A stretch of 38,160 nt of DNA from Planctomycetota bacterium (GTDB lineage Bacteria; Planctomycetota; Planctomycetia; Pirellulales; Thermoguttaceae), in NCBI GenBank assembly GCA_030612765.1, contig JAUWNG010000020.1, forward strand, positions 1 through 38,160. Direction: 5' to 3'. The notes under the pieces are model-generated. The model was given only the letters and a program-made list of their open reading frames with translations, searched no databases and had not been told where the DNA came from. This document shows, one piece after another, positions 9,193 to 38,160 of this stretch. The position numbers and the translations under genes were made by a program. The first letter of the stretch is position 1. Each line of letters opens with the position of its first letter.

Positions 9193-10317
9193 ATGGCTCT
9201 TTCCAATTTTCTGACCGAACTGGACGCCTTGCTCGACGAGGCGACGGACGCTTTCGCCGCGGCCTGCGACGCGGCCGCGTTGGAAGCCGCTCGCGTGCAA
9301 TTCGTCGGCGCCAAGAGCGGTCGATTGAAGGCCGTCCAGAAGGGGCTAGGCAAGGTGGACAAGGCCGACCGGCCCGCCGCCGGAAAGCGGTTCAACGAAG
9401 TCAAGCAAGCTATCGAGTCAGCCCACCAAGCGGTGGTCGAACGGTTGGCCTCGGCGTCGCGTCCGGCGGCCACCGCCCGATGCGTCGATCCCACGGTTCC
9501 CGGCGACTGCTGCCGGCTGGGCCGGCTGCACCCGATCACGCAGACGATCGAGGAGCTGAAGGAGATCATGGGCCGGCTGGGGTTCAGCGTGGTCGACGGG
9601 CCGGAGGTGGAAGACCAGTGGCACAATTTCGAGGCGTTGAATATCCCACCCGACCATCCCGCCTGTAACCCGTTGGAGAACTTCTATCTCGATCAAGGAT
9701 CAGCCGGCGGAGAAAGACAAGGAGACAAGGAGACAAGGAGACAAGGAGAAATCGCGGCAACAGCATCCTCCCTGTCTCCCCCTCTCCCCGTCTCCCTGTC
9801 TCCTTGTCTCCCTGTCTCCCCATCTTTTCTACTGCGGAGCCAGACGAGCACCGTGCAGATTCGGGCCATGGAACGGATGCGGCCGCCGGTACGGATAATC
9901 TCTTGCGGCCGGGTATACCGCCCCGACACCGCCGACGCCACCCACTACCCGATGTTCCATCAGATAGAGGGCCTACTGGTCGACCGCGGCGTGACGATGG
10001 CCGATCTGAAGAGCACGTTGCGGCTGTTCGCCCGCAGCGCTTTCGCCGACGACGTCCACATCCGTTTCCGGCCGTCGTTCTTCCCCTTCACCGAGCCAAG
10101 CGTCGAGGTGGACATGAGTTGGGCCGACGGGTGGATCGAGATGGGCGGGGCGGGTATGGTCGATCCAAACGTGCTTCGCGCCGTCGGCTACGACCCCGAG
10201 GAGTTCACCGGCTTCGCCTTCGGGCTGGGTATCGAACGTATCTGCGCCCGGCGGCACGGCATCGCAGATATCCGCGAGTTGTTCAAGAATGACGTGAGGT
10301 TTTTGCACCAGTTTTAG
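9193..10317 (+). CDS. pheS: Phenylalanine-tRNA ligase alpha subunit
   Basis: The 374-residue subunit contains an N-terminal coiled-coil arm (about 1-85) and the class II catalytic domain. Motif 2 (GRVYRPDTADATHYPMFHQIEG) and motif 3 (FAFGLGIERICARRHGI) are intact. With PheT it forms the alpha2beta2 enzyme that charges tRNA-Phe. Between FYLD and LLRSQTS there are about 40 extra residues (about 170-211, rich in Ser, Pro, Leu) encoded by a facing octamer array; in known PheS proteins these two motifs are separated by only a few residues. The frame is preserved, so the enzyme is probably functional with a surface loop. It is followed by pheT. Confidence 0.96.
   Translation: MALSNFLTELDALLDEATDAFAAACDAAALEAARVQFVGAKSGRLKAVQKGLGKVDKADRPAAGKRFNEVKQAIESAHQAVVERLASASRPAATARCVDPTVPGDCCRLGRLHPITQTIEELKEIMGRLGFSVVDGPEVEDQWHNFEALNIPPDHPACNPLENFYLDQGSAGGERQGDKETRRQGEIAATASSLSPPLPVSLSPCLPVSPSFLLRSQTSTVQIRAMERMRPPVRIISCGRVYRPDTADATHYPMFHQIEGLLVDRGVTMADLKSTLRLFARSAFADDVHIRFRPSFFPFTEPSVEVDMSWADGWIEMGGAGMVDPNVLRAVGYDPEEFTGFAFGLGIERICARRHGIADIRELFKNDVRFLHQF
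9715..9821. repeat. Octamer inverted arrays inside pheS
   Basis: Four exact copies of AGACAAGG (9715-9746) are followed by six full units plus a partial one of the complementary type CTCCCTGT/CTCCTTGT (9768-9821), with a 21-nt spacer. The arms can pair as a long imperfect hairpin. The period is 8 bp here, unlike the 7 bp seen elsewhere. The whole insert is translated in frame within PheS. Confidence 0.92.
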
Positions 10318-10321
10318 AAAC

Positions 10322-10410
10322 GGGGTTCGGGATTGGGGGTTCGGGACTCGGGAAGCACGGCATCCTGAACCCTCCAGCCCCGATCCCCGAATCCCCGAAC
10401 CCCCAATCCC
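10322..10410. repeat. Facing heptamer arrays in the pheS-pheT spacer
   Basis: Five units of the GGGGTTC/GGGATTG type (10322-10356) face a CCCCGAA-type array (10378-10410). GGGATTGGGGGTTCGGG at 10329-10345 pairs perfectly with 10394-10410. The same GGGATTC-type family recurs inside the FecR-LamG gene at 28156. The right arm abuts the pheT start codon and leaves no purine-rich ribosome binding site. Confidence 0.9.
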
Positions 10411-10414
10411 TCCC

Positions 10415-12595
10415 ATGCTCGTCTCCTGGAACTGGCTGAAACAATACGTGCCGCTGGATATGCCGCTGGAGGAACTTGAGCGGCGGCTGACCTTTTCTGG
10501 TCTCAACCATGAGGAGACCAAAGAGGTGGCCGACGACTTCGCCATCGACCTGGAGGTGACCAGCAATCGGCCCGATTGCCTGGGCCATATCGGCGTCGCC
10601 CGGGAAATCGCCGTGCTGTGGAATCTTAGCCTGAAGCTTCCCGCCGCTCGGCCGACGGAAGGCAAAACGCCGGTCGATAGTCTGGTTTCGGTGCGGATCG
10701 AGTGTCCCGATCTTTGCCCGCGATATACCGCTCGGGTGATCCGCGGCGTGAAGATCGGTCCCAGCCCACAATGGATGGCGAGGCGCTTGGAGACGGTCGG
10801 CATTATCCCGATCAACAACGTCGTGGATATCAGCAACTACGTGCTGATGGAGTGCGGACAGCCGTTGCACACGTTCGACTTCGGCAAGCTGCGCGGGGCG
10901 GGGAATAAAGGGGACAGGTCCAATTTGCCGCATAGCGGCCCTTCGGGTGCTCCGCACAAATTGGACCTGTCCCCTTTATTCCCCCCGGAGATCGTCGTCC
11001 GCCGCCCGCTGCCTGACGAGATCCTCGAAGCGATCGACCACAAAACCTACCAGCCTGGCCCCGAAACGTGCCTGATCTGCGACGGCGCTGTTCCCGTGGC
11101 GATCGGCGGGGTAATGGGCGGGGCGCGGACGGAGATTTCGCCGGACACACGCGACGTGTTGATCGAGGCGGCCGAGTTCGATCCGGTCTCGATCCGCAAC
11201 ACCGCCCGGCTGCTGAACCTGCACAGCGATTCGTCCTACCGTTTTGAGCGGCGGGTAGACCCCGAGGGGCTCGACTGGGCCAGCCGACGTTGCTGCGAAT
11301 TGATCCTCGACCTGGCCGGCGGCGAGTTGGCCGGCGGCATCGTGGACGTGGGCCGACCGCCGCGGAAGCGCGAGCCGATCGTGCTGCGGTTTTCGCAGTT
11401 GCAGCGGATTCTCGGCATTGAAGTGCCAGCCGAGCGGGTGCGAGAGATATTGCTGGCGCTGGGATTGGACCCGCTGGCCGCTAAAGCGGCCAGCCCTCAG
11501 TCGCTCGCCGTAACTCCGCCGAGTTGGCGGCGCGACCTGACCCGCGAGATCGACCTGATCGAGGAGGTCGGCCGAATCCACGGCTACGACGCGATACCCG
11601 AGGACGTGGGCGTGCCGATGGTCCCTTCGGCCCGACGCCGCGAGGATCGGGTGCTGGAAAAGGTCCGCCACGTGTTGACGGCCTGCGGCTTCGACGAGGC
11701 GGTCACGCTAAGCGCGGTCGATCGGCACACTTCCGAATCGCTCAGCCCCTGGACCGACGCCGAACCTTTGCGGAGTGCGATGCCGGTGGTCCGCGGCGCC
11801 GACCGGCTCCGCCGCAGTCTGTTGCCGAGTTTGCTCGTCGCGCGGGGGGCAAACGAGGCACTCGCCAACCCGATTATCGAGTTGTTCGAGATCGCCAAGG
11901 TATATCTGCCGCAAGGGGCCGAACTACCGCAAGAGCCGCTGCTGCTGGGTATCGCCGGCGGTCGGGACTATCCGGCGGTAAAAGGCGTGGTGGAAGCGAT
12001 CCTGTGCGAATTGAAGATAGCGGACCCCGTGGAAGCCGAGGGGTTAAAAGGGGACAGGTCCGATTTGTGCGAAACACCCTTCGGGCCGCTCAGCGGCAAA
12101 TCGGACCTGTCCCCTTTCGACACGGCCGCCTCGTGCCGGTTGCGGTTCCGCGGGCAGACGCTCGGCTACATGGGCCGCCTGACGGACGACGCGCTGAAAC
12201 AGTTCGATCTCAAAGGACCGGCCACGGTGGCCGAAGTCCGGCTGGCCCCGCTGATTGAAGCCGCCGATCTGATGCCGCGCTGCGTCGAGCAGTCGTCTTA
12301 CCCGGCGGTTACCCGCGACCTGAATCTGGTGGTCGCCGAAGCGGTCCGCTGGGCCGACGTGGCGGCCACCGCGCGGCGAGAGGCCGGCCCGTGCCTCGAA
12401 ACGCTCCAGTACCGAGACACGTACCGAGACGAAAAACGCTTGGGCGTCGATCGAAAAAGCCTCTTGTTCTCGATCGTGCTTCGCTCCGGCGAGTGTACGT
12501 TCACCAACCAACAGGCCGACGAAATCCGCGACCGGATCGTCGCCGCGTGCCGATCCGAACACGGGGCGGAATTGAGGAGAAAGGATGAGGGATGA
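10415..12595 (+). CDS. pheT: Phenylalanine-tRNA ligase beta subunit (compact form)
   Basis: The 726-residue subunit shows the PheT order: N-terminal SWNWLKQYVP, B3/B4 editing domain (SNRPDCLGHIGVARE, GVMGGA), B5 domain (VTPPSWRRDLTREIDLIEEVGRIHGYD), catalytic-like core and a C-terminal FDX-ACB domain (SSYPAVTRDLNLVV to FTNQQADEIRDRIV). The EMAP-like tRNA-binding OB domain normally found near residues 40-150 is absent. Two palindromic elements add about 30 residues after FGKLRG and about 27 after VEAEG, so the ancestral length was probably near 670. Its last residues, KDEG, and the TGA come from a heptamer array. Confidence 0.96.
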   Translation: MLVSWNWLKQYVPLDMPLEELERRLTFSGLNHEETKEVADDFAIDLEVTSNRPDCLGHIGVAREIAVLWNLSLKLPAARPTEGKTPVDSLVSVRIECPDLCPRYTARVIRGVKIGPSPQWMARRLETVGIIPINNVVDISNYVLMECGQPLHTFDFGKLRGAGNKGDRSNLPHSGPSGAPHKLDLSPLFPPEIVVRRPLPDEILEAIDHKTYQPGPETCLICDGAVPVAIGGVMGGARTEISPDTRDVLIEAAEFDPVSIRNTARLLNLHSDSSYRFERRVDPEGLDWASRRCCELILDLAGGELAGGIVDVGRPPRKREPIVLRFSQLQRILGIEVPAERVREILLALGLDPLAAKAASPQSLAVTPPSWRRDLTREIDLIEEVGRIHGYDAIPEDVGVPMVPSARRREDRVLEKVRHVLTACGFDEAVTLSAVDRHTSESLSPWTDAEPLRSAMPVVRGADRLRRSLLPSLLVARGANEALANPIIELFEIAKVYLPQGAELPQEPLLLGIAGGRDYPAVKGVVEAILCELKIADPVEAEGLKGDRSDLCETPFGPLSGKSDLSPFDTAASCRLRFRGQTLGYMGRLTDDALKQFDLKGPATVAEVRLAPLIEAADLMPRCVEQSSYPAVTRDLNLVVAEAVRWADVAATARREAGPCLETLQYRDTYRDEKRLGVDRKSLLFSIVLRSGECTFTNQQADEIRDRIVAACRSEHGAELRRKDEG
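10900..10984. repeat. Palindromic element, copy 1, inside pheT
   Basis: A perfect 28-bp inverted repeat (10900-10927 and 10957-10984, core AAAGGGGACAGGTCCAATTTG) encloses a 29-nt loop. It is translated in frame as about 30 residues between KLRG and EIVVRR, motifs that are nearly adjacent in ordinary PheT. GGGGACAGGTCC-type palindromes are known as dispersed REP-like repeats in many bacteria; no transposase is in this window. Confidence 0.95.
12047..12117. repeat. Palindromic element, copy 2, inside pheT
   Basis: The same element with 21-bp perfect arms (12047-12067 and 12097-12117, one transition from copy 1) and again a 29-nt loop. The loop matches the reverse complement of the copy 1 loop (both share a CACCC and CCGCT core), so the two copies lie in opposite orientation. 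It is translated in frame. Confidence 0.95.
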
Positions 12596-27335: not shown

Positions 27336-27866
27336 ATGCCAGACCCAAAACAATACGATGAGTTTTGCGAACAGTTGCAGTGCGCCACGGGCCGCATCCT
27401 CGCCTACATCAACGCGCTGCTGTTGAACTGGAACGACGCGGAAGACGTCTTTCAGGAATCGTGCGTTGTCCTCTGGCGGAAATTCGATGAGTTCCAGCCG
27501 GGGACCAACTTTGTCGCTTGGGCACTCCGCATCGCGCAGAACAAGGTGATGGATTTCCAAAAGAGCTGCGCCCGGCGACAGACGTTTTTTACACCCGAGT
27601 TGCAAACCTCGTTTATGGCCGAAATCTTACGTCCCGCTACTTCGGCGGAGGACGCGGGGTTGGACGCCCTGTCGAATTGCATGAAGGAGCTTGGCGCCGC
27701 CGACCGGCAACTCGTCCAACTCTGTTACGGCGACGGCGTGCGGGTCCGCGAAATCGCGGTACAAATGGGCCGGTCGCCACAAAGCGTCCATAATTCGCTG
27801 CGACGCATACGAATGACGCTCTTTGAGTGCATCGAGCGAGTGATCGAGCGGGAGGATCGTCGATGA
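27336..27866 (+). CDS. ECF RNA polymerase sigma factor
   Basis: The 176-residue protein has the two ECF domains. Region 2 (about 10-80) shows NWNDAEDVFQESCVVLWRKFDEF and FVAWALRIAQNKVMDF. Region 4 (about 115-165) shows LGAADRQLVQLCYGDGVRVREIAVQMGRSPQSVHNSLRRIR. This type is greatly expanded in planctomycetes and verrucomicrobia. Its TGA overlaps the ATG of the FecR-LamG gene (ATGA), implying translational coupling to the probable regulator. The genes downstream, PEP-CTERM to sialidase, are candidate targets. Confidence 0.93.
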   Translation: MPDPKQYDEFCEQLQCATGRILAYINALLLNWNDAEDVFQESCVVLWRKFDEFQPGTNFVAWALRIAQNKVMDFQKSCARRQTFFTPELQTSFMAEILRPATSAEDAGLDALSNCMKELGAADRQLVQLCYGDGVRVREIAVQMGRSPQSVHNSLRRIRMTLFECIERVIEREDRR

Positions 27867-29866
27867 ACAACGCCCGGCCGATCGCCGACGAATTCTGGCC
27901 CTTGCTCGACGCCGCCTGCGCCGACGAACTAACCGACGGTCAATGGACCGAGCTGCAATCGCATCTGGAAAGCAGCCCCGCCGCCCGACGGGCGTTCGTC
28001 GAACACATCCGCCTGCGCACGAATATCCGTCAATGGTGGAAAGGCAAGCGGTCGCGCGAGGCGGGGTTGAGCAGGATCAAGACCGAGTGCGCGCGCGAGG
28101 GGCGGGTCGGTGATGGACGAGGGATGGCCGGTTCACCGGCCATTGATGGAGAGGAGGGGTTCGGGATTCGGGATTCGGGGTTCGGGGTTCGAGACTCGGA
28201 ATCTCTCTCTGCTGACACGGCGGTTGAACTGCCGTCAGGCCAATGGCCTCAAACCCCCAGTCCCGAACCCCCAATCCCGCCGATCGTCATCGATCTTTCC
28301 TCCACTAGCCATTATCCACTACCCACTAGCCACTTTTCCGTCGGCAGTTGGGCGTTCTCCTACACGGTCGCCACGGTAATCACGGGCGTGATGCTGCTGG
28401 GGTTCTGGGCGGTAGAAGTCACCCATCACCAACATATCGCCGAGGCGCCGTCGCAGTTGGTTCCGTCGGACGCCAGGCCGGAGATGGTGTTCGTCGGCCG
28501 GATCACCGGCATGGTCGATGTGAAATGGTCGGACGATCCCCGCTATCTGCCCCCGCCGGACTTCGCCCACGTTCCCTTAGACAGAAAATACATCCTCGAC
28601 TCTGGCTTGTTGGAAATCACTTACGACTCCGGCGCGAAGGTCATCCTTCAAGGGCCTTGCACCTACGAGGTCGAATCCACCGCCGGCGGCTACCTTTCGT
28701 TGGGCAAACTGACGGCGAAGGTAGAGAAGAAGAAGTCAGAGGTCAGAGGTCAGAGGTCAGATCCCTCTCCCCTCTCCCCTCTCCCCTCTCCCCTCTTCTC
28801 CGTCCGCACTCCCACCGCTCTCATCACCGACCTGGGCACCGAGTTCGGCGTCGAAGTCAGCGATGAGGGAACCACCACGTCGCACGTATTCCACGGCTCG
28901 GTGAAGGTGCTGGTGTTGGATGGCGCTGGAAATCTCCCCTCTCCTTTCGGGAGAGGGGCCGGGGGTGAGGGCAGTGTGCGCGAGGTGATTTTGGGCGAAA
29001 ACGAATCGGCGCGGGTGGAGAGGGCTGATGGCGCTGGGCATCTGTCGATCGTCCGCCACGCCGCTGAGAGTGTGCCGTCGGACTTCGTCCGCGCCATGCC
29101 GCCGCCCAAACACGTCGCCGGGAGCACGAGCTACGCCGAGTTGGTGCTGTCGCTCAATCCCGCCGTCTACTATCGCATGGAGCGACCCAAAGACGAGAAG
29201 GACCGGCTGGTGGTGTTCGATTCGGCTCCCGGCGGTCATCACGGCGTACTGTATTTGGCCGACGAGTATGGCGGCTCGCCCTATTGGTCCGGCCGCTTCG
29301 GCGACTCGCTTCGCCTTCGTGGGCAGGGGGCCGGCGACCACGCGATCGTGCCCGACTACCCAAAAGCCGCCAACGATCAACTGACCGTGTCGGCTTGGGT
29401 GATGCTCGATAGCCAGAATACGTGGTGGGCGATGATCGCCGCCAACTGGGGCAACGTTCCCATCTCGGAACGCCCCGCCCGTGGTCAATTCCACTTCGGT
29501 CTTTATCAGAGCGATGGGGACTTGTCGGTGCAGGCGACGCAACGCGACCAGAAGTTGCTCTTAGTCCGCGAGGGGAAGGACCGTCCCTTGCCGATCGGCA
29601 CGTGGCTGCACGTGGCCTTCGTGGCCGACGGCACGACCTTGCGACTGTACCGCAACGGCGTGGAAGTGGCCACCGGGCCGTGCCGGGACATCTTCCCCAG
29701 ACCGCCCATGGCCAGTCTGGGCATCGGCTGCAAGACGACGACCGCGGGCACGGAGGCGTCCACTAGAACCCCTGCCTTCTGGCGCGGACGGATCGACGAA
29801 CTGGCCGTTTTCAATCGGGCGCTGTCGCCGGCGGAGGTCCGTAAATTGGCCCAATCGTGGGAGTAA
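27863..29866 (+). CDS. FecR-LamG transmembrane protein, probable anti-sigma regulator
   Basis: The 667-residue protein starts at the ATGA overlap with the sigma gene, with GGAGG upstream. A cytoplasmic segment (about 1-95, LTDGQWTELQSHLESSPAARRAF) precedes one membrane helix (about 162-186). A FecR domain (about 205-385) has DSGAKVILQGPCTYEVES and TALITDLGTEFGVEVS. A C-terminal LamG/concanavalin domain (about 425-660) has FDSAPGGHHGVLY and WLHVAFVADGTTLRLYRNG. It probably senses an outside signal and controls the sigma factor. Four repeat insertions, all in frame, interrupt it: residues about 98-140, 147-158, 291-312 and 357-370. Confidence 0.88.
   Translation: MNNARPIADEFWPLLDAACADELTDGQWTELQSHLESSPAARRAFVEHIRLRTNIRQWWKGKRSREAGLSRIKTECAREGRVGDGRGMAGSPAIDGEEGFGIRDSGFGVRDSESLSADTAVELPSGQWPQTPSPEPPIPPIVIDLSSTSHYPLPTSHFSVGSWAFSYTVATVITGVMLLGFWAVEVTHHQHIAEAPSQLVPSDARPEMVFVGRITGMVDVKWSDDPRYLPPPDFAHVPLDRKYILDSGLLEITYDSGAKVILQGPCTYEVESTAGGYLSLGKLTAKVEKKKSEVRGQRSDPSPLSPLPSPLFSVRTPTALITDLGTEFGVEVSDEGTTTSHVFHGSVKVLVLDGAGNLPSPFGRGAGGEGSVREVILGENESARVERADGAGHLSIVRHAAESVPSDFVRAMPPPKHVAGSTSYAELVLSLNPAVYYRMERPKDEKDRLVVFDSAPGGHHGVLYLADEYGGSPYWSGRFGDSLRLRGQGAGDHAIVPDYPKAANDQLTVSAWVMLDSQNTWWAMIAANWGNVPISERPARGQFHFGLYQSDGDLSVQATQRDQKLLLVREGKDRPLPIGTWLHVAFVADGTTLRLYRNGVEVATGPCRDIFPRPPMASLGIGCKTTTAGTEASTRTPAFWRGRIDELAVFNRALSPAEVRKLAQSWE
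28156..28281. repeat. Facing heptamer arrays in the FecR-LamG gene (first)
   Basis: Six units (GGGGTTC, GGGATTC and variants, 28156-28197) face four partly complementary units (28254-28281). The 56-nt centre contains ACGGC/GCCGT. The family is the same as in the pheS-pheT spacer. It is translated in frame into the cytoplasmic segment (GFGIRDSGFGVRDSE). Confidence 0.88.
28302..28336. repeat. Heptamer array in the FecR-LamG gene (second)
   Basis: Five 7-bp units (CCACTAG, CCATTAT, CCACTAC, CCACTAG, CCACTTT) directly before the membrane helix. No facing arm is seen. It is translated as HYPLPTSH-like residues. Confidence 0.8.
28735..28797. repeat. Two abutting heptamer arrays in the FecR-LamG gene (third)
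   Basis: Four GTCAGAG units (28735-28762) are followed at once by five CCCTCTC units (28763-28797). Nine units make 63 bp, exactly 21 codons, so the frame is kept. The segment lies between KLTAKVEKK and VRTPTALITDLG inside the FecR domain. Confidence 0.93.
28933..28971 (-). repeat. 39-bp CCCTCA/GAGAGG element in the FecR-LamG gene (fourth)
   Basis: Read on the minus strand, it matches the 39-bp element in asnB (36350-36388) at 36 of 39 positions and contains the hairpin CTCTCC/GGAGAG. It is translated in frame between VLVLDG and REVILGENE. Confidence 0.9.
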
Positions 29867-30197: not shown

Positions 30198-30364
30198 CGG
30201 GTGACCCGATGGACGTTTCATCGCGTTGCTCGCAACACGTATGGTTGGTGCGGCGGTTGTACTGCCACGCCAACAAGGGATGCCGGCGCGTTGCCCGCAG
30301 CCCGCAAAGAGTTTTCTCGAAAGTTTTGTTTTTGCAACCTTTTTGTTTCGCAAGGAGAAAGAAA

Positions 30365-31060
30365 ATGTCTCGGAATTTACTTAGCATGATTGGCGTGATT
30401 CTCGTGGCGGCGGCGGTCTTGACATTCGGCGCCACCAACGCTTCCGCGGAACTGATCCTGAACGGGAGTTTTGAAACCTCGGATCTCGAGCCAGGGGACT
30501 TTCCCTATAGCGATGGATGTCGTGCAAAAATTGACCCCGGCGACACCGCTAACCTGCCCGATTGGCTTTTAGTCGCCGGTAGCCCGGACCTTACAAAGTA
30601 CTATTATTACGGGGCTGATACAGGATCCATTCCGTTGACGGACGCCCATGAAGGCGACCGCTTCTTGTTTGTGTGCGATCCATGGACTTCTGGCACCGAC
30701 CCATCTGCTAACCAGAGCTTCGCCGTTACCGCGGGGACGCAGTACGACGTCAGTTTTTGGGAGAAGTTGTGGAGGGGCTCGGGCAAAGTAAACGCCGACA
30801 TCACGTTGGACGCGGGTAGCGCCACCGGTACGACGACTGTAACCACCGGCAGCGACGCCGATTGGACCGAGTACGCCTTCAGTTTCACCCCGGACACCAA
30901 TGCCACGGCGACACTGACGTTCACTGCGGCAGTTAGTGCTGCTAACGACTCGTTCCTGGACAGCGTGTCGGTGACGGCCATTCCCGAGCCGGGCACGCTG
31001 GCGCTGCTGGCCACCGGTCTGCTCGGCCTGCTCTGCTACGCATGGAGGAAGCGGCGGTAG
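30365..31060 (+). CDS. PEP-CTERM surface protein
   Basis: The 231-residue protein begins at ATG 30365 behind AAGGAG, with a signal peptide (SRNLLSMIGVILVAAAVLTF, cut near ASA). The body, ELILNGSFETSDLEPGDFP onward to FLDSVSVTAIPE, has the beta-sandwich look of DUF642-like or carbohydrate-binding-like exported proteins. It ends with the sorting signal IPEPGTLALLATGLLGLL followed by WRKRR: the PEP motif, a membrane helix and a basic cluster. Such proteins are processed by an exosortase, not in this window, and released or anchored at the surface. Its stop codon touches a heptamer array. Confidence 0.92.
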   Translation: MSRNLLSMIGVILVAAAVLTFGATNASAELILNGSFETSDLEPGDFPYSDGCRAKIDPGDTANLPDWLLVAGSPDLTKYYYYGADTGSIPLTDAHEGDRFLFVCDPWTSGTDPSANQSFAVTAGTQYDVSFWEKLWRGSGKVNADITLDAGSATGTTTVTTGSDADWTEYAFSFTPDTNATATLTFTAAVSAANDSFLDSVSVTAIPEPGTLALLATGLLGLLCYAWRKRR

Positions 31061-31323
31061 ATTTATGATTTAGGATGTATGATTTCTGATTTGACTGGCG
31101 AAATCCGGCGTCGTCACGAAGATATTTCGTGACGACGCTCGGAGCGCCGGCCATTCTCGGAATCGCAAGAACTCACGTTAAGGCGCTGGGGCGCAAAGGA
31201 ACTTTGTTGTCTTTGCGCCTTGGCGTGAGATTTTTGGGGTGTGTTTGAGCGATTTTTCCATTCAGCCATGAGGTGAGCGATGTGCCGAAGCAACCATAAA
31301 TCAGAAATCAGAAATCAGAAATC
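31060..31323. repeat. Widely spaced facing heptamer arrays between PEP-CTERM and DUF1559 genes
   Basis: Five GATTTAT/GATTTCT-like units (31060-31094) and four complementary AGAAATC units (31296-31323) face each other across about 200 bp. The first begins in the PEP-CTERM stop codon; the second lies in the first codons of the DUF1559 frame. Between them are a 12-bp perfect hairpin (31109-31137, CGTCGTCACGAA) and a terminator. Confidence 0.88.
31172..31235 (+). terminator. Long terminator hairpin with T-run
   Basis: CTCACG (31172-31177) with CGTGAG (31224-31229), and GGCGCAAAG (31190-31198) with CTTTGCGCC (31211-31219), form a long stem followed by ATTTTT. It fits termination after the PEP-CTERM gene. 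Confidence 0.6.
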
Positions 31324-32359
31324 CACTGCCCTCACCCTAACCCTCTCCCAAAGGGAGAGGGGATTCACGCTTGTGGAACTTTTGGTCGTGATCACGATCA
31401 TCGGCATTTTGATTGCGCTGTTGCTGCCGGCGGTACAGGCGGCCCGCGAGGCGGCCAGAAGGTTGCAGTGCTGCAACAACCTCAAACAACTCAGTCTGGC
31501 CTGCCTGAACCACGAGGAGATACACGGATTCTACCCGTCCGGCGGATGGGGATGCTCTTGGACCGGCGACCCCGACCGCGGCCCCGGCAGGCGTCAACCG
31601 GGTGGTTGGGTCTACTCCATCCTCCCCTATCTCGAACAACAGGCCCTTTACGACATTGGCACGGACGGCGACCCCGGGGAACCCTTCAGCCAGATCCAAC
31701 GGAACGGCGCGGTGCAACGCGACCAAGTGCCGTTGACCATGCTCGTCTGTCCTACCCGGCGTGCGGCGATCCTCTATCCAAGGCCAAGGTGGAGGAATGG
31801 GCAGATTTGGTATTACAATGCCGCGAGTTACGGGACCGCGGACCTCGCGGGGGGCGGCGGCCTCGACTACGCGGCCAACTCCGGCGGAAACTGGTGGTGG
31901 TGTACCGGCCCCCGCAGCATCGCCGAGGCCGAATCGCCGAGCTTCGATTGGTCGCAGTGCGGCGCCCTGACCAGCACCGGCGTAATCTACTCCCATAGCG
32001 AAATCACGATGGCCGATATTATCGACGGCACGAGCAACACCTTCTTGCTGGGCGAGAAGTACCTCAATCCCGACAGTTACTACACCGGTTTGGACCACGC
32101 CGACGACGCTGCCGCTTTCGAGGGCCACGCCCACGACGTGGATCGCGGAACCTCGCGTCAAGACGTGCCGCTGCCGCCTTTGCCGGACACTCCAGGCAGC
32201 ATGGTTCTCTACAATTTCGGCAGCGCGCACGCCATCGGCTTGCACATGTCTCTCTGCGACGGCTCGGTCCAGTTCATCAACTATTCGATCGACCCGCTGG
32301 TCTTTTCCTGCCTGGGCGACCGCAAGGACGGCATGGTGATCGACGGCAAGAAGTTCTGA
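31280..32359 (+). CDS. DUF1559 protein with prepilin-type N-terminus
   Basis: The 359-residue protein is a typical planctomycete DUF1559 member. It has a prepilin cleavage site [11 protein letters not shown], then [20 protein letters not shown], a mid-region GYPLL-like block ([16 protein letters not shown]) and the C-terminal H-x9-DG motif ([19 protein letters not shown]). It is likely cleaved by a prepilin peptidase and assembled as a pseudopilin-like surface component. The leader before the glycine (from ATG 31280) is encoded entirely by repeats: an AGAAATC array and a CCCTCA/GAGAGG element that gives SQRERG. The true start is therefore uncertain. Confidence 0.9.
31329..31363 (+). repeat. 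35-bp CCCTCA/GAGAGG element, short form
   Basis: Related to the 39-bp elements at 28933 and 36350 but with a six-base period (CCCTCA, CCCTAA, CCCTCT) before the hairpin CTCTCCC/GGGAGAG. It encodes the basic leader of the DUF1559 protein. Confidence 0.85.
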
Positions 32360-32412
32360 TCGCGGCAGGGCCATTCATCCAAAATCCACTAAACTGAACA
32401 GGAAACGCTACC

Positions 32413-33984
32413 GTGAGTCAAGACGATCATCCCGTTGAACAAGAATCAATTCAAGTGCACCGGTGCGGCTGCTCCCACGGCTCCCATCCCACGCTCGACC
32501 ATGTCTCGCGGCGCGGGTTTCTTCAAGGGGTCGGATGCGGCGCCGTCGGCGTTACGCTGGGCGGATTGAGCACTACGACGGTACACGCCGCCGATGCCGC
32601 GCCGTCGCCTCCGCGCGGAGCGACGCTTCGCATCAAGCCGATTCTTACCTACGAAATCCAACGCCGGCGGGACCGGGACAGCTATCGCGCCTACGGCGCG
32701 CTGGACGACATGGACAAGGTCAACGAGGAAATCAAGCGGATCGAAGCCGAGTTGAAGCGGCTTGCCTCCCAAGCCGAGTTTCCCATCGAGATACTGCCGG
32801 TCTCCGCGGTGGATGATAATAATCAAGCCCGAAAGGCCGCCGCCGCCGACTGCGACGTCCTGCTGGTCTATCCGGCGGGCGGTTATACCATCCTCAGCAT
32901 TGCCGCATCGAAAACGCCCAAGGTGCTGTTCGTGCGGCACAAGTCGGGGCCGTACTATCAGTGGCACGAAATCGCCCATTTCCGCCTGTTGCGACGCAGC
33001 GGCGATGAGTTCGTGCCGCAGGAGGTGGACCTCGACGACATCGTCGTGGACGAATACGACGAGGTGCTCTGGCGGCTCCGTGCCCTCTATGGGCTGAAGA
33101 ACGCCAAGGGGACGAAGATGCTCGCCATCGGCGGGCTGGCGGCCTACTCCAAACCGGGGCAAGAGTCCGGCCCCCGCCATGCCAAGGAAGTATGGGATTA
33201 CCAATTCGAGATCGTCTCGGAAGAGGATTTTGGCAAGCGGCTCAAAAAAGCGCAGGCGGACCGGCGGATCGTGGAGGCCGTCCAACGGCAGACCAAGGCG
33301 CTGTTGGCCCAGCCGAACGTGACGCTGGCCACCGAGCGGAAGTTCGTGTTCAATTCCTTCATGGCCCTCTGGGTGGCGAAGCAACTGATGAAGGAGACCG
33401 GCGCGACCAATTTTGGCTTCGCTTACTGCATGAAGCGAAAGGTCATCGAGATGCTCGACACGCCGCCTTGCCTAGTTCTGGCGCTGGCCAACGACGAGGG
33501 CTACACGGCGTACTGTCACACGGACCTCACGCACACTCTGCCCGGCGTGCTGCTGCGCTGGATATCCGGAAAGCCATCGTTCCTGTGCAACTCGCATTTA
33601 CCCCATGACGGCATTTTTACCGTGGCCCATTGCGCGGCGCCGCGAAAGATGAACGGCAAGGACTACGAACCCGCGAAGATCATGACGCATTTCGAGTCCG
33701 ACTACGGCGCCGCGTCCAAGGTGGAATACACCCAGGGGCAGGTCGTCACGGTCGTCATCCCCAACCTGCGCTGCACGAAGTGGCAGGGGTTCCGGGGCAA
33801 GATCATCGCCTCGCCCTCGCTTCCGGCCTGCCGCTCACAGATGGACATTCAAGTCGACGGCGACTGGCGCAAGATACTGACCGACCAGCAAGGCTTCCAC
33901 ACGCAGGTCTGCTACGGCGACTACCTCCGCGAGATTGGCTACGCTCTGAAACGGGTCGGCATCCAGTGGGAGAACTTGGGTTAG
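32413..33984 (+). CDS. Tat-exported sugar-isomerase-like protein
   Basis: The 523-residue protein starts at GTG 32413 behind AGGAAA. A twin-arginine signal (SRRGFL at 32-37, then a hydrophobic stretch GVGCGAVGVTLGGL and a cut near VHA) points to export of a folded, possibly metal-bearing protein. The C-terminal half (PCLVLALANDEGYTAYCHTDL, SFLCNSHLPHDGIFTVAHCAAP, THFESDYGAASKVEYTQG) resembles the C-terminal domain of L-fucose/L-arabinose isomerases, with His and Glu residues suitable for metal binding. Activity and substrate are inferred only. It lies between two DUF1559 sequences. Confidence 0.75.
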   Translation: MSQDDHPVEQESIQVHRCGCSHGSHPTLDHVSRRGFLQGVGCGAVGVTLGGLSTTTVHAADAAPSPPRGATLRIKPILTYEIQRRRDRDSYRAYGALDDMDKVNEEIKRIEAELKRLASQAEFPIEILPVSAVDDNNQARKAAAADCDVLLVYPAGGYTILSIAASKTPKVLFVRHKSGPYYQWHEIAHFRLLRRSGDEFVPQEVDLDDIVVDEYDEVLWRLRALYGLKNAKGTKMLAIGGLAAYSKPGQESGPRHAKEVWDYQFEIVSEEDFGKRLKKAQADRRIVEAVQRQTKALLAQPNVTLATERKFVFNSFMALWVAKQLMKETGATNFGFAYCMKRKVIEMLDTPPCLVLALANDEGYTAYCHTDLTHTLPGVLLRWISGKPSFLCNSHLPHDGIFTVAHCAAPRKMNGKDYEPAKIMTHFESDYGAASKVEYTQGQVVTVVIPNLRCTKWQGFRGKIIASPSLPACRSQMDIQVDGDWRKILTDQQGFHTQVCYGDYLREIGYALKRVGIQWENLG

Positions 33985-34041: not shown

Positions 34042-34188
34042 GTTTTCGGCTATGCGCACACCGTCGGATTCCAGATGGCCTTCTGCGACGGCTCGGTCCA
34101 TTTGATCAACTACACGATCGACCAGTCGGTCCATGCGCATCTGGGCAATCGCGGCGACGGCTACACGATCAACGGGAAAAAGTTCTGA
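34042..34188 (+). pseudogene. C-terminal fragment of a second DUF1559 gene
   Basis: The frame ending at TGA 34186-34188 reads VFGYAHTVGFQMAFCDGS, then VHLINYTIDQSVHAHLGN and RGDGYTINGKKF. This matches the last 45 or so residues of the intact DUF1559 protein ([16 protein letters not shown], ending DGKKF), including the H-x9-DG motif. No N-terminal part or start codon is present, so it is a remnant. A duplication followed by deletion, or replacement by the isomerase-like gene, would explain it. Confidence 0.85.
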
Positions 34189-34305
34189 TCCACAAGAAGT
34201 ACGTCGAGGGCTTGCCGATCGCCGGAAAGACGTTAACATCGATAGTGGGCTACAATGCGCATCAATACCATGAAAAAGTGCAAAAGTCGAACTAAGGAAC
34301 TTCGC

Positions 34306-36072
34306 ATGTTCGTGAAAATGTCTGCATTTGTTCAGTCCTGCATCTTGTTGGTCGCGTCCGTGTGTTTTTGTTCAGATTCCACGGCGGCGGATGACCCGCG
34401 CAACGCGCTTTTCGGCAGCGTCATTCCAGACGAAGGTTATTGCGACCAGCCATACGTCGTCGTGACCAAGGACGGCAATTGGCTTTGCACTCTGACTACC
34501 GGCGCGGGGCATGAGGGCACGAAGGGCCAGCACGTGGTCTCCACTATCAGCACCGACAAGGGCAACACGTGGTCCGGGTTGGTGGACATCGAACCGAGCA
34601 GCGGCCCCGAAGCGTCCTGGGTGACGCCGCTGATCGTGCCCGGCGGCCGCGTCTACGCCTTCTACACCTACAACGGCGATAAAATCCACGCGTTGCCCGG
34701 CGAGGAAAAAAGCTGTCGCACAGACATGCTCGGTTGGTATTGTTTCAAGTATTCCGACGACGGCGGCCAGTCGTGGTCGGCCGAGCGATATCGCCTGCCG
34801 ATGCCCGTGACTGCATGTGACTTAGCCAACGATTGGGGCGGCGAGGTGCAGATTTTCTGGGGAATCGACAAGCCCAGCGTCGTCGGAGACAGCGTGATCT
34901 TCTCCTACACCAAGCTGGGCCGTTACATGCTCGATAACGGCGAGGGATGGCTTTTCCGCTCCGACAACATCCTCGCTGAATCCGATCCGACAAAGCTGCA
35001 CTGGACCCCCTTGCCCGACGGCGATCACGGCATCCGGGCACCGGAGTTCGGTTCGGTCCAGGAAGAACACAACATCGTTCCGCTCAGAGACAACAAGCTC
35101 TATTGCGTATATCGGACGACCACCGGACACCCTTGCCAGAGCTACAGCGACGACGGCGGACACACCTGGACGAAGCCCGAACACATGACATACACACCGG
35201 GGGGACGCAAAATCAAGACCTCGCGGGCGTGTCCCAAACTATGGCAGACGGCCGACGGCCGCTACCTCTTCTGGTTCCACAATCACAGCGGCCTGGACTT
35301 CAATGGTCGCAATCCGGCCTGGGTCGTCGGCGGCGTGGAGCGAGACGGCCACATCCACTGGTCGCAGCCCGAAATACTACTCTACGATCCCGTCGTCAAC
35401 ACGAGAATGAGCTACCCCGACCTGATCGAGCAGGACGGCCGCTACTGGGTCGCCGAAACGAATAAATCCGTCGCCCGCATCCATGAAATCGACAAGACCC
35501 TCTTGGAGGGACTTTGGAACCAGGAGTCGAACAAGCAGCGCGCCGGCGGGAACCTGCTGCTGGAATGGAGGTCGGGCGAAACCGGCGGCGCGCCGGTGTT
35601 GCCGCGGGCAATCGACTTGGCGCAGTCCAGCGGAATTACCCTCGACTGTTGGGTTCGATTGGACGACCTCGCCGCCGGACAAGTGCTCGTGGACTGCCAG
35701 GGTACGGGCGGCAAACGCGTTTCCCTGACCACCATCAACGACGGCGCCGTCCGCTTGGAACTCAGCGACGGCACGACCACGGTCGCGTGGGATTGCGATC
35801 CCGGATTGCTCCAGGCGGGCAAGTTGCACCACATCGTGGCGACTGCCGACGTCGGACCCAAGATCATCACGTTTGTGGTGGATGGAGTCTTCTGCGACGG
35901 CGGCCAGCACCGCCAATACGGCTGGGGGCGATGGAATGGAAACCTGGGGACGGTTTTGAAAGCCGGTCCGCTGGCCGCTGGTCCGTCGCTGAAATCCCTG
36001 CGCGTCTATGATCGTTACCTCCGCACTTCCGAAGCAGTCGGCAACTTCCAAGCCGGCGCAAGTGAAAAGTGA
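34306..36072 (+). CDS. Secreted sialidase-like protein with LamG-type C-terminal domain
   Basis: The 588-residue protein has a signal peptide (MFVKMSAFVQSCILLVASV) and a six-bladed-propeller-type core with three Asp-box motifs, STDKGNTW (82-89), SDDGGQSW (150-157) and SDDGGHTW (281-288), as in GH33-like sialidases and BNR-repeat glycosidases. A LamG/concanavalin-like domain follows (about 415-585, ITLDCWVRLDDL, KLHHIVATAD, SLRVYDRYLR). It probably binds or cleaves sugars outside the cell. ATG 34306 is preferred for its AAGGA site (34294-34298); the frame opens at 34255. Confidence 0.85.
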   Translation: MFVKMSAFVQSCILLVASVCFCSDSTAADDPRNALFGSVIPDEGYCDQPYVVVTKDGNWLCTLTTGAGHEGTKGQHVVSTISTDKGNTWSGLVDIEPSSGPEASWVTPLIVPGGRVYAFYTYNGDKIHALPGEEKSCRTDMLGWYCFKYSDDGGQSWSAERYRLPMPVTACDLANDWGGEVQIFWGIDKPSVVGDSVIFSYTKLGRYMLDNGEGWLFRSDNILAESDPTKLHWTPLPDGDHGIRAPEFGSVQEEHNIVPLRDNKLYCVYRTTTGHPCQSYSDDGGHTWTKPEHMTYTPGGRKIKTSRACPKLWQTADGRYLFWFHNHSGLDFNGRNPAWVVGGVERDGHIHWSQPEILLYDPVVNTRMSYPDLIEQDGRYWVAETNKSVARIHEIDKTLLEGLWNQESNKQRAGGNLLLEWRSGETGGAPVLPRAIDLAQSSGITLDCWVRLDDLAAGQVLVDCQGTGGKRVSLTTINDGAVRLELSDGTTTVAWDCDPGLLQAGKLHHIVATADVGPKIITFVVDGVFCDGGQHRQYGWGRWNGNLGTVLKAGPLAAGPSLKSLRVYDRYLRTSEAVGNFQAGASEK

Positions 36073-36126
36073 TTTTTCCCCCATCCCCTTGCCGATGCAT
36101 CTTCCCGCGGTATATCATGCCTCTTA

Positions 36127-38160
36127 ATGTGTGGCATTGCCGGAGCGGTGTGGAACGATGCGAGCAAGGCCGTGGAGCGGAAGACGCTCCAGCGGATGAT
36201 CGACGTGCTGCGCCACCGCGGGCCGGACGACGAAGGGATGTTTTTTAGTGGTCAGGGGCCAGGGGCCAGTGGTCGGGGGGCAGGGAATGAGGGTTGGGCA
36301 CTTCAGCGCCCAGTTAAGTCGGCCGTGGACGGTGCGCCTGGGACAACTACCCTCATCCCCGGCCCCTCTCCCAAAGGGAGAGGGGAGATTGTCGGCGTGG
36401 CGCTGGGCCATCGAAGGCTGTCGATCATCGACATTGAAGGCGGCCGGCAGCCGATCTCGAACGAAGACGGCTCGGTATGGGTCGTCTTCAACGGCGAAAT
36501 CTACAACTTCCGCGAGCTGCGCCGCCGTCTGGAACAATCGGGCCATCGCTTCCGCACCAACAGCGACACCGAAGTGCTCGTCCATCTGTACGAGGACGAG
36601 GGACCGGAGATGCTCGGCAGCCTTCGCGGCATGTTCGCCCTGGCCGTCTGGGACGCCCGACGGCGGCGATTGCTCCTGGCCCGCGACCGCCTGGGACAAA
36701 AACCGCTGGTCTATCGCCACGAGCCGGGGCGGCTGTTGTTCGCCAGCGAATTGAAAAGCCTGCTGCAAGTACACGGTGTGCCGCGGGAGATCGACCCACG
36801 GGCGCTCGACGACTATCTGACCTATCAATACGTTCCGCATCCGCGAACGATATTTCGGGGCATCGCCAAGCTGCCGCCCGGCCACTACGCAATCTACGAA
36901 GACGACCAACTGGAAGTGCGCCCCTTTTGGCGGCCCGATTTCAACGTCGAGGAAGATCGCTCCGCCGCGGAATACGCCGACGAGCTGCGCGAACTGCTGA
37001 CCTCGGCCGTCGAGACGCGGTTGCAGAGCGAGGTGCCGCTGGGGGCGTTCCTTTCCGGCGGGATCGACTCGACGATCATCGTCGGGCTGATGTCGCAGCT
37101 TGCCCGGGAGCCGGTGCGGACCTTCTCGATCGGCTTCCCGGTCGGCGAGTTCGACGAGACGGGTTTCGCTCGGACGGCGGCCGAGCGGTTCGGCACGATC
37201 CATCGGGAGTTTCAGGTTCGTCCCGACGCGATGGAGGTCTTGCCCCGGCTGGTGTGGCACTACGACGAACCGTTTGCCGACAGCTCGGCGGTGCCGACGT
37301 GGTACGTCTCGCAGCTTACCCGTCAACAAGTGACCGTGGCCCTGAGCGGCGACGGCGGCGACGAGTTGTTCGCCGGCTATCCGCGCTATTTGGCCGTTTG
37401 GCTGTCGGGCATGTTCGATCGGATGCCGAGTGTGCTGCGTCGGATGGCAGCGGGCCGATATTGGCAAAAGCTGCCCGGCGGGGTGCGGCAGAAATCGCTC
37501 CGTCGGCGCTTCAAGCGGTTCGTCGAGATGCTCGACATGCCCCCGGCGCGGCGATATTTGGAGTGGATCGCCATTTTCGGCCAATCGCGGCGCGACGCGC
37601 TCTACAGCGACGGCTTCGCGGGCCAACTATCCGGCGACGATCCGTTGCAGTTTCTCGACGCGGCGTTGGCCCGCGCCGACCGCCGCGACGCGGTCACGGC
37701 TTTCAGTCTTGCCGATCTGGTAACGTACCTGCCCGGCGATCTGATGACCAAGACGGACATCGCTTCGATGGCCCACGGGCTGGAATGTCGCCAGCCGTTT
37801 CTCGACCATCGGGTGGCGGAGCTGGCCGCTCGGATGCCGCGTCGGCTGAAGTTCCGCCGCGGCCGGGGGAAGCTGATTTTGCGCGAGACCTTTGGCGACT
37901 TGCTGCCCGAGTCGATCCAGCGTCGGCCGAAGATGGGATTCGGCGTTCCGCTGGACCACTGGTTCCGCCACGAGCTGCGCGACTTTGCCCGCGAAATCCT
38001 GATGGACAAGAAGACGCTCGATCGCGGCTATTTTCGCCCGGAGGCCGTCTCGCAATTCTGGGACGAGCACCAGCAATGCCGCTTCAACCACGGCTACCGT
38101 CTCTGGTCGTTGTTGATCCTCGAACTTTGGCAGCGCGAGTGGTGCGACAACAACACGTAG
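36127..38160 (+). CDS. asnB: Asparagine synthase (glutamine-hydrolysing)
   Basis: The 677-residue enzyme begins MCGIAGAV, so Cys2 is the glutaminase nucleophile after Met removal. The class II glutamine amidotransferase domain (RHRGPDDEG, LGHRRLSIID, NGEIYNF) is followed by the synthetase domain with the pyrophosphate loop LSGGIDST, SGDGGDELFAGYPRY and KTDIASMAHGLECRQPFLDH. It converts aspartate, ATP and glutamine to asparagine, or acts on a related substrate in wall-sugar synthesis. About 48 extra residues (about 41-88, rich in Gly, Pro, Arg) split HRGPDDEGMF from VALGHRRLS. They are encoded by a heptamer array and a 39-bp element. No ribosome binding site is clear. The stop is the last codon of the window. 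Confidence 0.94.
   Translation: MCGIAGAVWNDASKAVERKTLQRMIDVLRHRGPDDEGMFFSGQGPGASGRGAGNEGWALQRPVKSAVDGAPGTTTLIPGPSPKGRGEIVGVALGHRRLSIIDIEGGRQPISNEDGSVWVVFNGEIYNFRELRRRLEQSGHRFRTNSDTEVLVHLYEDEGPEMLGSLRGMFALAVWDARRRRLLLARDRLGQKPLVYRHEPGRLLFASELKSLLQVHGVPREIDPRALDDYLTYQYVPHPRTIFRGIAKLPPGHYAIYEDDQLEVRPFWRPDFNVEEDRSAAEYADELRELLTSAVETRLQSEVPLGAFLSGGIDSTIIVGLMSQLAREPVRTFSIGFPVGEFDETGFARTAAERFGTIHREFQVRPDAMEVLPRLVWHYDEPFADSSAVPTWYVSQLTRQQVTVALSGDGGDELFAGYPRYLAVWLSGMFDRMPSVLRRMAAGRYWQKLPGGVRQKSLRRRFKRFVEMLDMPPARRYLEWIAIFGQSRRDALYSDGFAGQLSGDDPLQFLDAALARADRRDAVTAFSLADLVTYLPGDLMTKTDIASMAHGLECRQPFLDHRVAELAARMPRRLKFRRGRGKLILRETFGDLLPESIQRRPKMGFGVPLDHWFRHELRDFAREILMDKKTLDRGYFRPEAVSQFWDEHQQCRFNHGYRLWSLLILELWQREWCDNNT
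36250..36388. repeat. Heptamer array plus 39-bp element inside asnB
   Basis: Seven 7-bp units (GGTCAGG, GGCCAGG, GGCCAGT, GGTCGGG, GGGCAGG, GAATGAG, GGTTGGG; 36250-36298) are followed after 51 nt by a 39-bp CCCTCATCCCCGG...GAGAGG element (36350-36388). ATGAGGGT pairs with ACCCTCAT across the centre. The insert is translated in frame. Confidence 0.93.

Follow-up and report, generated by a model that had tools for sequence, protein, structure and literature searches.

Antigenic variation by recombination between paralogues, as in pilE/pilS, vlsE and the Bacteroides shufflons, keeps a conserved part of a gene and replaces a variable part from other copies in the genome. The palindromic elements of Rickettsia are tolerated in frame in protein-coding genes, even essential ones. 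The heptameric repeats of Xanthomonas and Nostoc are mostly intergenic, with a preference for four units (PMC4692102), and a few of the TAACTGA heptamer direct repeats of Beggiatoaceae and cyanobacteria lie inside reading frames (PMC4679880). ECF sigma factors of family TIGR02989 with FecR-type anti-sigma proteins occur in Planctomycetes and Verrucomicrobia, and the locus described here has the same sigma family beside a FecR membrane protein.

The window, i.e., the whole stretch of 38,160 nucleotides that was analysed, belongs to a 4-Mb metagenome-assembled genome (MAG; G000) and was compared with two MAGs of the same genus (G001 and G002); loci (paralogues) carry L numbers and contigs C numbers. 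All three genomes are fragmented, with many contigs ending within FecR modules, and G000 is the poorer assembly, with homopolymer junk at several contig ends (C174, C7, C193 and the start of C40). A k of 141 was apparently used in both assemblies, as judged from exact 141-bp end overlaps, and k-mers should therefore span most arrays. The genes and domains at the head of the locus are as follows.

27336..27866, + strand: ECF sigma factor gene (Pfam Sigma70_r2/r4_2; TIGR02989, the Rhodopirellula/Verrucomicrobium family), the fixed head of the locus
27863..29866, + strand: FecR-LamG membrane anti-sigma/sensor gene, 667 aa, open frame (Pfam FecR and Laminin_G_3)
27863..28147, + strand: N-terminal anti-sigma-like helical domain and start of the linker, which stays with the sigma gene (95.8-97.5% nucleotide identity to G002 C250)
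28349..28417, + strand: membrane helix (residues 163-185), with which the conserved TM-FecR module common to the paralogues begins
28826..28858, + strand: TDLGTEFGVEV motif; orthologous identity stops ~31-34 nt past its first base in three pairs

The sigma factor scores 145.4 bits against NCBIfam TIGR02989, above the curated cut-off of 124.55, and its orthologue in G002 is 95% identical in amino acids; a contig search with the sigma protein found a single close orthologue, L222 (G002, JAUWPQ01, isolate CSMAG_2480). The FecR-LamG gene starts at the ATG at 27863, overlapping the sigma stop codon, and the listed GTG at 27827 is a wrong start. The Pfam FecR score of 24.3 bits barely exceeds the 24-bit cut-off. 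The layout is that of a putative FecR-type membrane anti-sigma protein (i.e., an N-terminal cytoplasmic helical domain, one membrane helix and a FecR domain, adjoining an ECF sigma gene). A structure model, used for secondary structure alone because its mean pLDDT is 62, has helices at residues 11-78, a low-confidence linker (80-158), the membrane helix at 163-185, and then the FecR and LamG domains. Phage records contained no relative of this gene.

An earlier note on this DNA had claimed four in-frame repeat elements within the FecR-LamG gene, and these are indeed present, with the frame open through all four (the two facing linker arrays counting as one element).

28156..28199, + strand: site 1, heptamer array GGGATTC/GGGGTTC in the linker; high orthologous identity stops just ahead of it
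28252..28279, + strand: facing array AACCCCCAATCCCG, predicted to form a hairpin with 28156-28199
28302..28334, + strand: heptamer array CCACTAG/CCACTAC, directly ahead of the membrane helix
~28731..28796, + strand: site 2, double heptamer array AGAGGTC x4 / CCCTCTC x5, in a loop of the FecR domain (residues ~287-312)
~28933..28975, + strand: 39-bp element, a REP-like palindrome with ~91 genomic sites per strand

Period-7 self-matching in the gene reaches a run length of 27; among 2000 first-order resamples the longest run was 11, which excludes chance. None of the other periods from 4 to 12 gives a run of at least 10. Genome-wide array statistics come from a 143-kb sample and pattern searches; in the 143 kb of the same genome there are 26 period-7 runs versus 1-2 for each other period tested. 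Enriched in period 7, dispersed and heterogeneous in their units, the arrays resemble STRR-like dispersed repeats. The REP-like element has ~91 genome sites per strand versus none for a control; the palindrome, CCCTCTCC...GGAGAGGGG, is found in the window at 28937, 31341 and 36364. For CTTCATC, the sole heptamer kind counted genome-wide, ~12 of ~20 array sites are at FecR site 2, all in the same orientation. In the model, array-coded residues 80-158, 287-312 and 364-371 are of low confidence or without secondary structure, and the site 2 loop connects strand 282-286 with strand 313-315. Both kinds of element, heptamer arrays and REP-like palindrome, are dispersed genomic repeats in low-confidence, loop-like segments.

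Facing heptamer or octamer arrays fold with z values of -2.7 to -6.9, and an Rfam search gave no match. A role for the arrays in RNA structure was set aside, given that chimeric site 2 pairs (e.g., AGAGGTC with CCACTAC) speak against a required hairpin, as do the array-free loops of G001 L163, L165 and L167. Similar repeats lie elsewhere in the window. In pheS, a single-copy gene, two octamer arrays face each other in frame (9713-9749 and 9768-9825); their total length is equal in G000 and G002, and in G001 this position holds another insert, made of a palindrome plus heptamers. The pheS/pheT intergenic segment (10322-10410) has facing arrays of the GGGATTC kind known from the FecR linker, and pheT has inverted repeats inside its reading frame (10900-10988 and 12036-12132; 28 nt, perfect, GGGGAATAAAGGGGACAGGTCCAATTTG); an element similar to the latter is also found in some FecR head regions.

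A search of its own genome found ~30 FecR-LamG paralogues in G000, and G001 and G002 have about as many. Silent cassettes without heads were considered; there are ~25 TIGR02989 sigma genes, mostly beside a FecR module, and as these match the FecR heads, most loci look complete. FecR domains from outside the genus have a short loop at the array position (e.g., GKLTARVNAKGTGFTVETP or GQLVARVSPAAVGFTIRTP), which identifies the arrays as an addition in this genus. Site 2 heptamers differ among copies, with AGAGGTC, AAATCAG, AAGGTTC or GGGGAGA on the left and CCCTCTC, CTTCATC or CCACTAC on the right, and one G002 copy has octamers instead.

The earlier note had further proposed that, a 7-bp unit keeping frame only in multiples of three, changes in unit number would switch the FecR-LamG frame and could make the gene, and with it the sigma factor, phase-variable. 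This is supported in part. The near-perfect arrays differ in unit count from copy to copy and from species to species, and gain or loss of one unit can disrupt the frame. One locus, L039 (contig C189), is one CCACTAC unit short ahead of the membrane helix, with its sigma gene intact, and in L024 and L025 the shift falls at site 2, with an open frame again behind the array. Off-frame states are rare, however. The site 2 frame is kept in 81 of 84 copies (31/31 in G001, 26/26 in G002 and 24/27 in G000), against an in-frame share of 1/3 expected without constraint (P ~6e-35), and the linker frame is intact in all G001 and G002 copies read. Site 2 lengths fall into groups of 87, 108, 129 and 150 nt, with further groups at 126/147 and 123/144, i.e., in 21-nt steps of three units; among orthologues, L022/L112 shows a direct three-unit change, 21 nt in a CCACTAC array. 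Array lengths were also compared outside FecR, where few pairs had orthologous flanks. The remaining broken copy, L021 (contig C148), is shifted in both linker and site 2, and as its sigma gene is frameshifted as well, this locus has probably decayed. All frame breaks are in G000, where they may be natural off-states or assembly errors. The arrays in pheS, where switching off would harm, are of the same kind and unchanged in length between G000 and G002. With the frame kept in 57 of 57 sister copies and every break in the poorer genome, general phase variation is not supported, and we consider a sigma regulon made phase-variable by slipped-strand changes in unit number unlikely. The best explanation is that selection keeps the arrays in frame, and that their kind and length change mostly by module swap and sometimes by slippage in unit steps. 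On this reading the arrays are not a general on/off switch; what mainly changes at these loci is the sensor operon, which is replaced as a whole.

This replacement was apparent when the sequence behind the FecR-LamG gene was compared with that of G002.

30209..31060, + strand: PEP-CTERM exported protein (TIGR02595 above cut-off), part of the exchanged block
31280..32359, + strand: DUF1559 pseudopilin-like protein (Pfam SBP_bac_10 and N_methyl), part of the exchanged block
32413..33984, + strand: 523-aa protein of the exchanged block, without Pfam or NCBIfam match and with no near match in G002
34044..34190, + strand: stub of the resident DUF1559 3' end (74% to 32215-32361, 90% to G002 C208), right edge of the block
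34191..37889, + strand: right flank, over which the window is again syntenic with G002 C208 (93%)

Identity between the window and G002 is 97.5-95.8% up to 28147 and 80% over 28301-28914, after which only short conserved pieces are found until 34191; the head matches C250, and right-flank synteny resumes on a separate G002 contig, C208. The pair C212/C282, by contrast, consists of contigs that are continuous in both genomes. These are 92-95% identical through the sigma gene and FecR module to ~31 nt past the start of TDLGTEFGVEV; the following 6.1 and 6.6 kb, respectively, are unrelated save for short conserved pieces, and 94-96% synteny then extends over ~10 kb. As the MAGs are fragmented and contigs end in FecR modules, C212/C282 is the sole case in which continuous contigs have an unrelated body with conserved sequence on either side. 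DUF1559 3' stubs mark the right edge in both the window and C212. In C155/C157, likewise on continuous contigs, both flanks and most of the body are conserved, and in C121/C334 the right flank does not return, the C334 right flank lying behind another head (C148) in G000; the latter pattern may reflect either a genuine crossover or contig chimerism.

Identity profiles covered 14 head-orthologous pairs between G000 and G002, which share 95-99% nucleotide identity from upstream through the N-terminal domain. In 12 of the 14, at or close to the linker/TM boundary, identity drops to that seen among paralogues, L027/L129 and L013/L115 being exceptions with higher identity. When 29 paralogues are ranked by similarity, the FecR module at the orthologous locus comes about halfway down the list in most pairs and is no closer than a typical paralogue. 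Upstream flanks have one clear orthologue per locus (~93-98%), and the downstream flanks of the same pairs are mostly without a match. The operon (cassette) behind the orthologous head is unrelated in 8 of 11 testable pairs, weakly related in 1 and kept in 2. One cassette family, 84-90% identical, stands behind the L109 head in G002 and the L039 head in G000 and is absent from the partner loci. From one species to the other, heads remain where they are on the chromosome, and the bodies behind them give way to unrelated or recirculating ones; a body is replaced between conserved flanks both in C212/C282 and in the window (with C250 and C208), and the cassette family of L039 and L109 shows one body recurring behind more than one head.

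Chimeric contigs joined within similar FecR modules could mimic both cassette swaps and frame breaks, and the many contig ends in these modules, some with exact 141-mers in common, and the homopolymer junk in G000 would fit such an artefact. The modules, however, are ~85% identical rather than identical, the identity drop is marked by the same gene region in most pairs, and a chance misjoin would not regain synteny after the block, as the continuous contigs C212 and C282 do. We thus regard an assembly artefact as very improbable. A different source for the bodies would be horizontal transfer into fixed heads, without reassortment among the loci of the genus. The other genome holds no close match to the cassettes of the window, L010, L022, L025, L027 and L103; that of the window has none elsewhere in G002, so import from outside is possible for some cassettes. 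As a general account, import seems rather unlikely, since cassettes other than these turn up again (84-93%) behind different heads, both inside one genome and from genome to genome, and the FecR modules all come from one paralogue group.

The arrays themselves might be the recombination sites, with joining in the linker. High-identity heads stop at or beside linker arrays in the window and C40, and dispersed arrays would supply short homologies, but the L018/L103 linker has no heptamer array and its cassette was nevertheless replaced, and alignments in L018/L103, C187 and C121 are continuous as far as the FecR motif. Array-mediated exchange is therefore doubtful. Since the arrays are needed neither for exchange (L018/L103) nor for the protein (L163, L165 and L167), we see them as tolerated repeats at flexible joints.

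From these sequence comparisons, we consider it likely that the loci form a modular sigma/anti-sigma family, in which sensor/effector bodies are recombined between paralogous loci behind fixed heads and arrays are tolerated at the joints. The head would comprise the ECF sigma factor together with the FecR protein's N-terminal anti-sigma domain; the exchangeable body would take in the membrane helix, the FecR and lectin-like sensor domains, and the PEP-CTERM protein, pseudopilin and enzymes. Bodies may be replaced when paralogous loci undergo homologous recombination or gene conversion; the putative left arm would be the conserved linker-TM-FecR module and the putative right arm the DUF1559 3' ends, and the resident sigma factor would thereby gain a new sensor and new targets. 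More tentatively, the system may be combinatorial and still active within populations, heads being continually re-joined through repeat-filled linkers to other operons of sensor plus surface proteins, such that lineages of cells would differ in the signals and surface proteins tied to each sigma factor. If the modular reading is right, sigma/anti-sigma specificity would stay constant while the sensed signal and the surface proteins that follow are swapped, and signalling would be rewired by a route other than on/off phase variation or surface-antigen shuffling, which would help to explain the dozens of such sigma factors in planctomycetes. The locus would also be a clear example of heptamer arrays in frame within conserved proteins, and pheS offers the same for octamer arrays.

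A search of open papers found no description of FecR/LamG/PEP-CTERM bodies reassorting behind fixed heads, and neither an invertase nor a silent-only store was identified at these loci. With regard to the repeats, the STRR of cyanobacteria and the GGGAATC/GGGGAYT arrays of Xanthomonas and Nostoc (PMC4692102) are also dispersed heptamers with heterogeneous units, often ~four, and inverted pairs; unlike these, many arrays here occupy, in frame, the same position throughout a family of paralogous genes and are of several heptamer kinds. TAACTGA repeats (PMC4679880) have one sequence, lie mostly upstream of start codons and, where coding, mostly at protein ends, whereas the arrays here occupy a conserved internal loop. 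The 39-bp element is, like REP elements (PMC3733652), a short, high-copy palindrome, here in frame inside a gene, and is called REP-like by these general features. The likeness to the Rickettsia elements is one of placement; the repeats here are tandem heptamers or octamers. Finally, compared with pilE/pilS, vlsE and the Bacteroides shufflons, the variable part at these loci is a sensor domain together with the downstream operon, behind a sigma/anti-sigma head.
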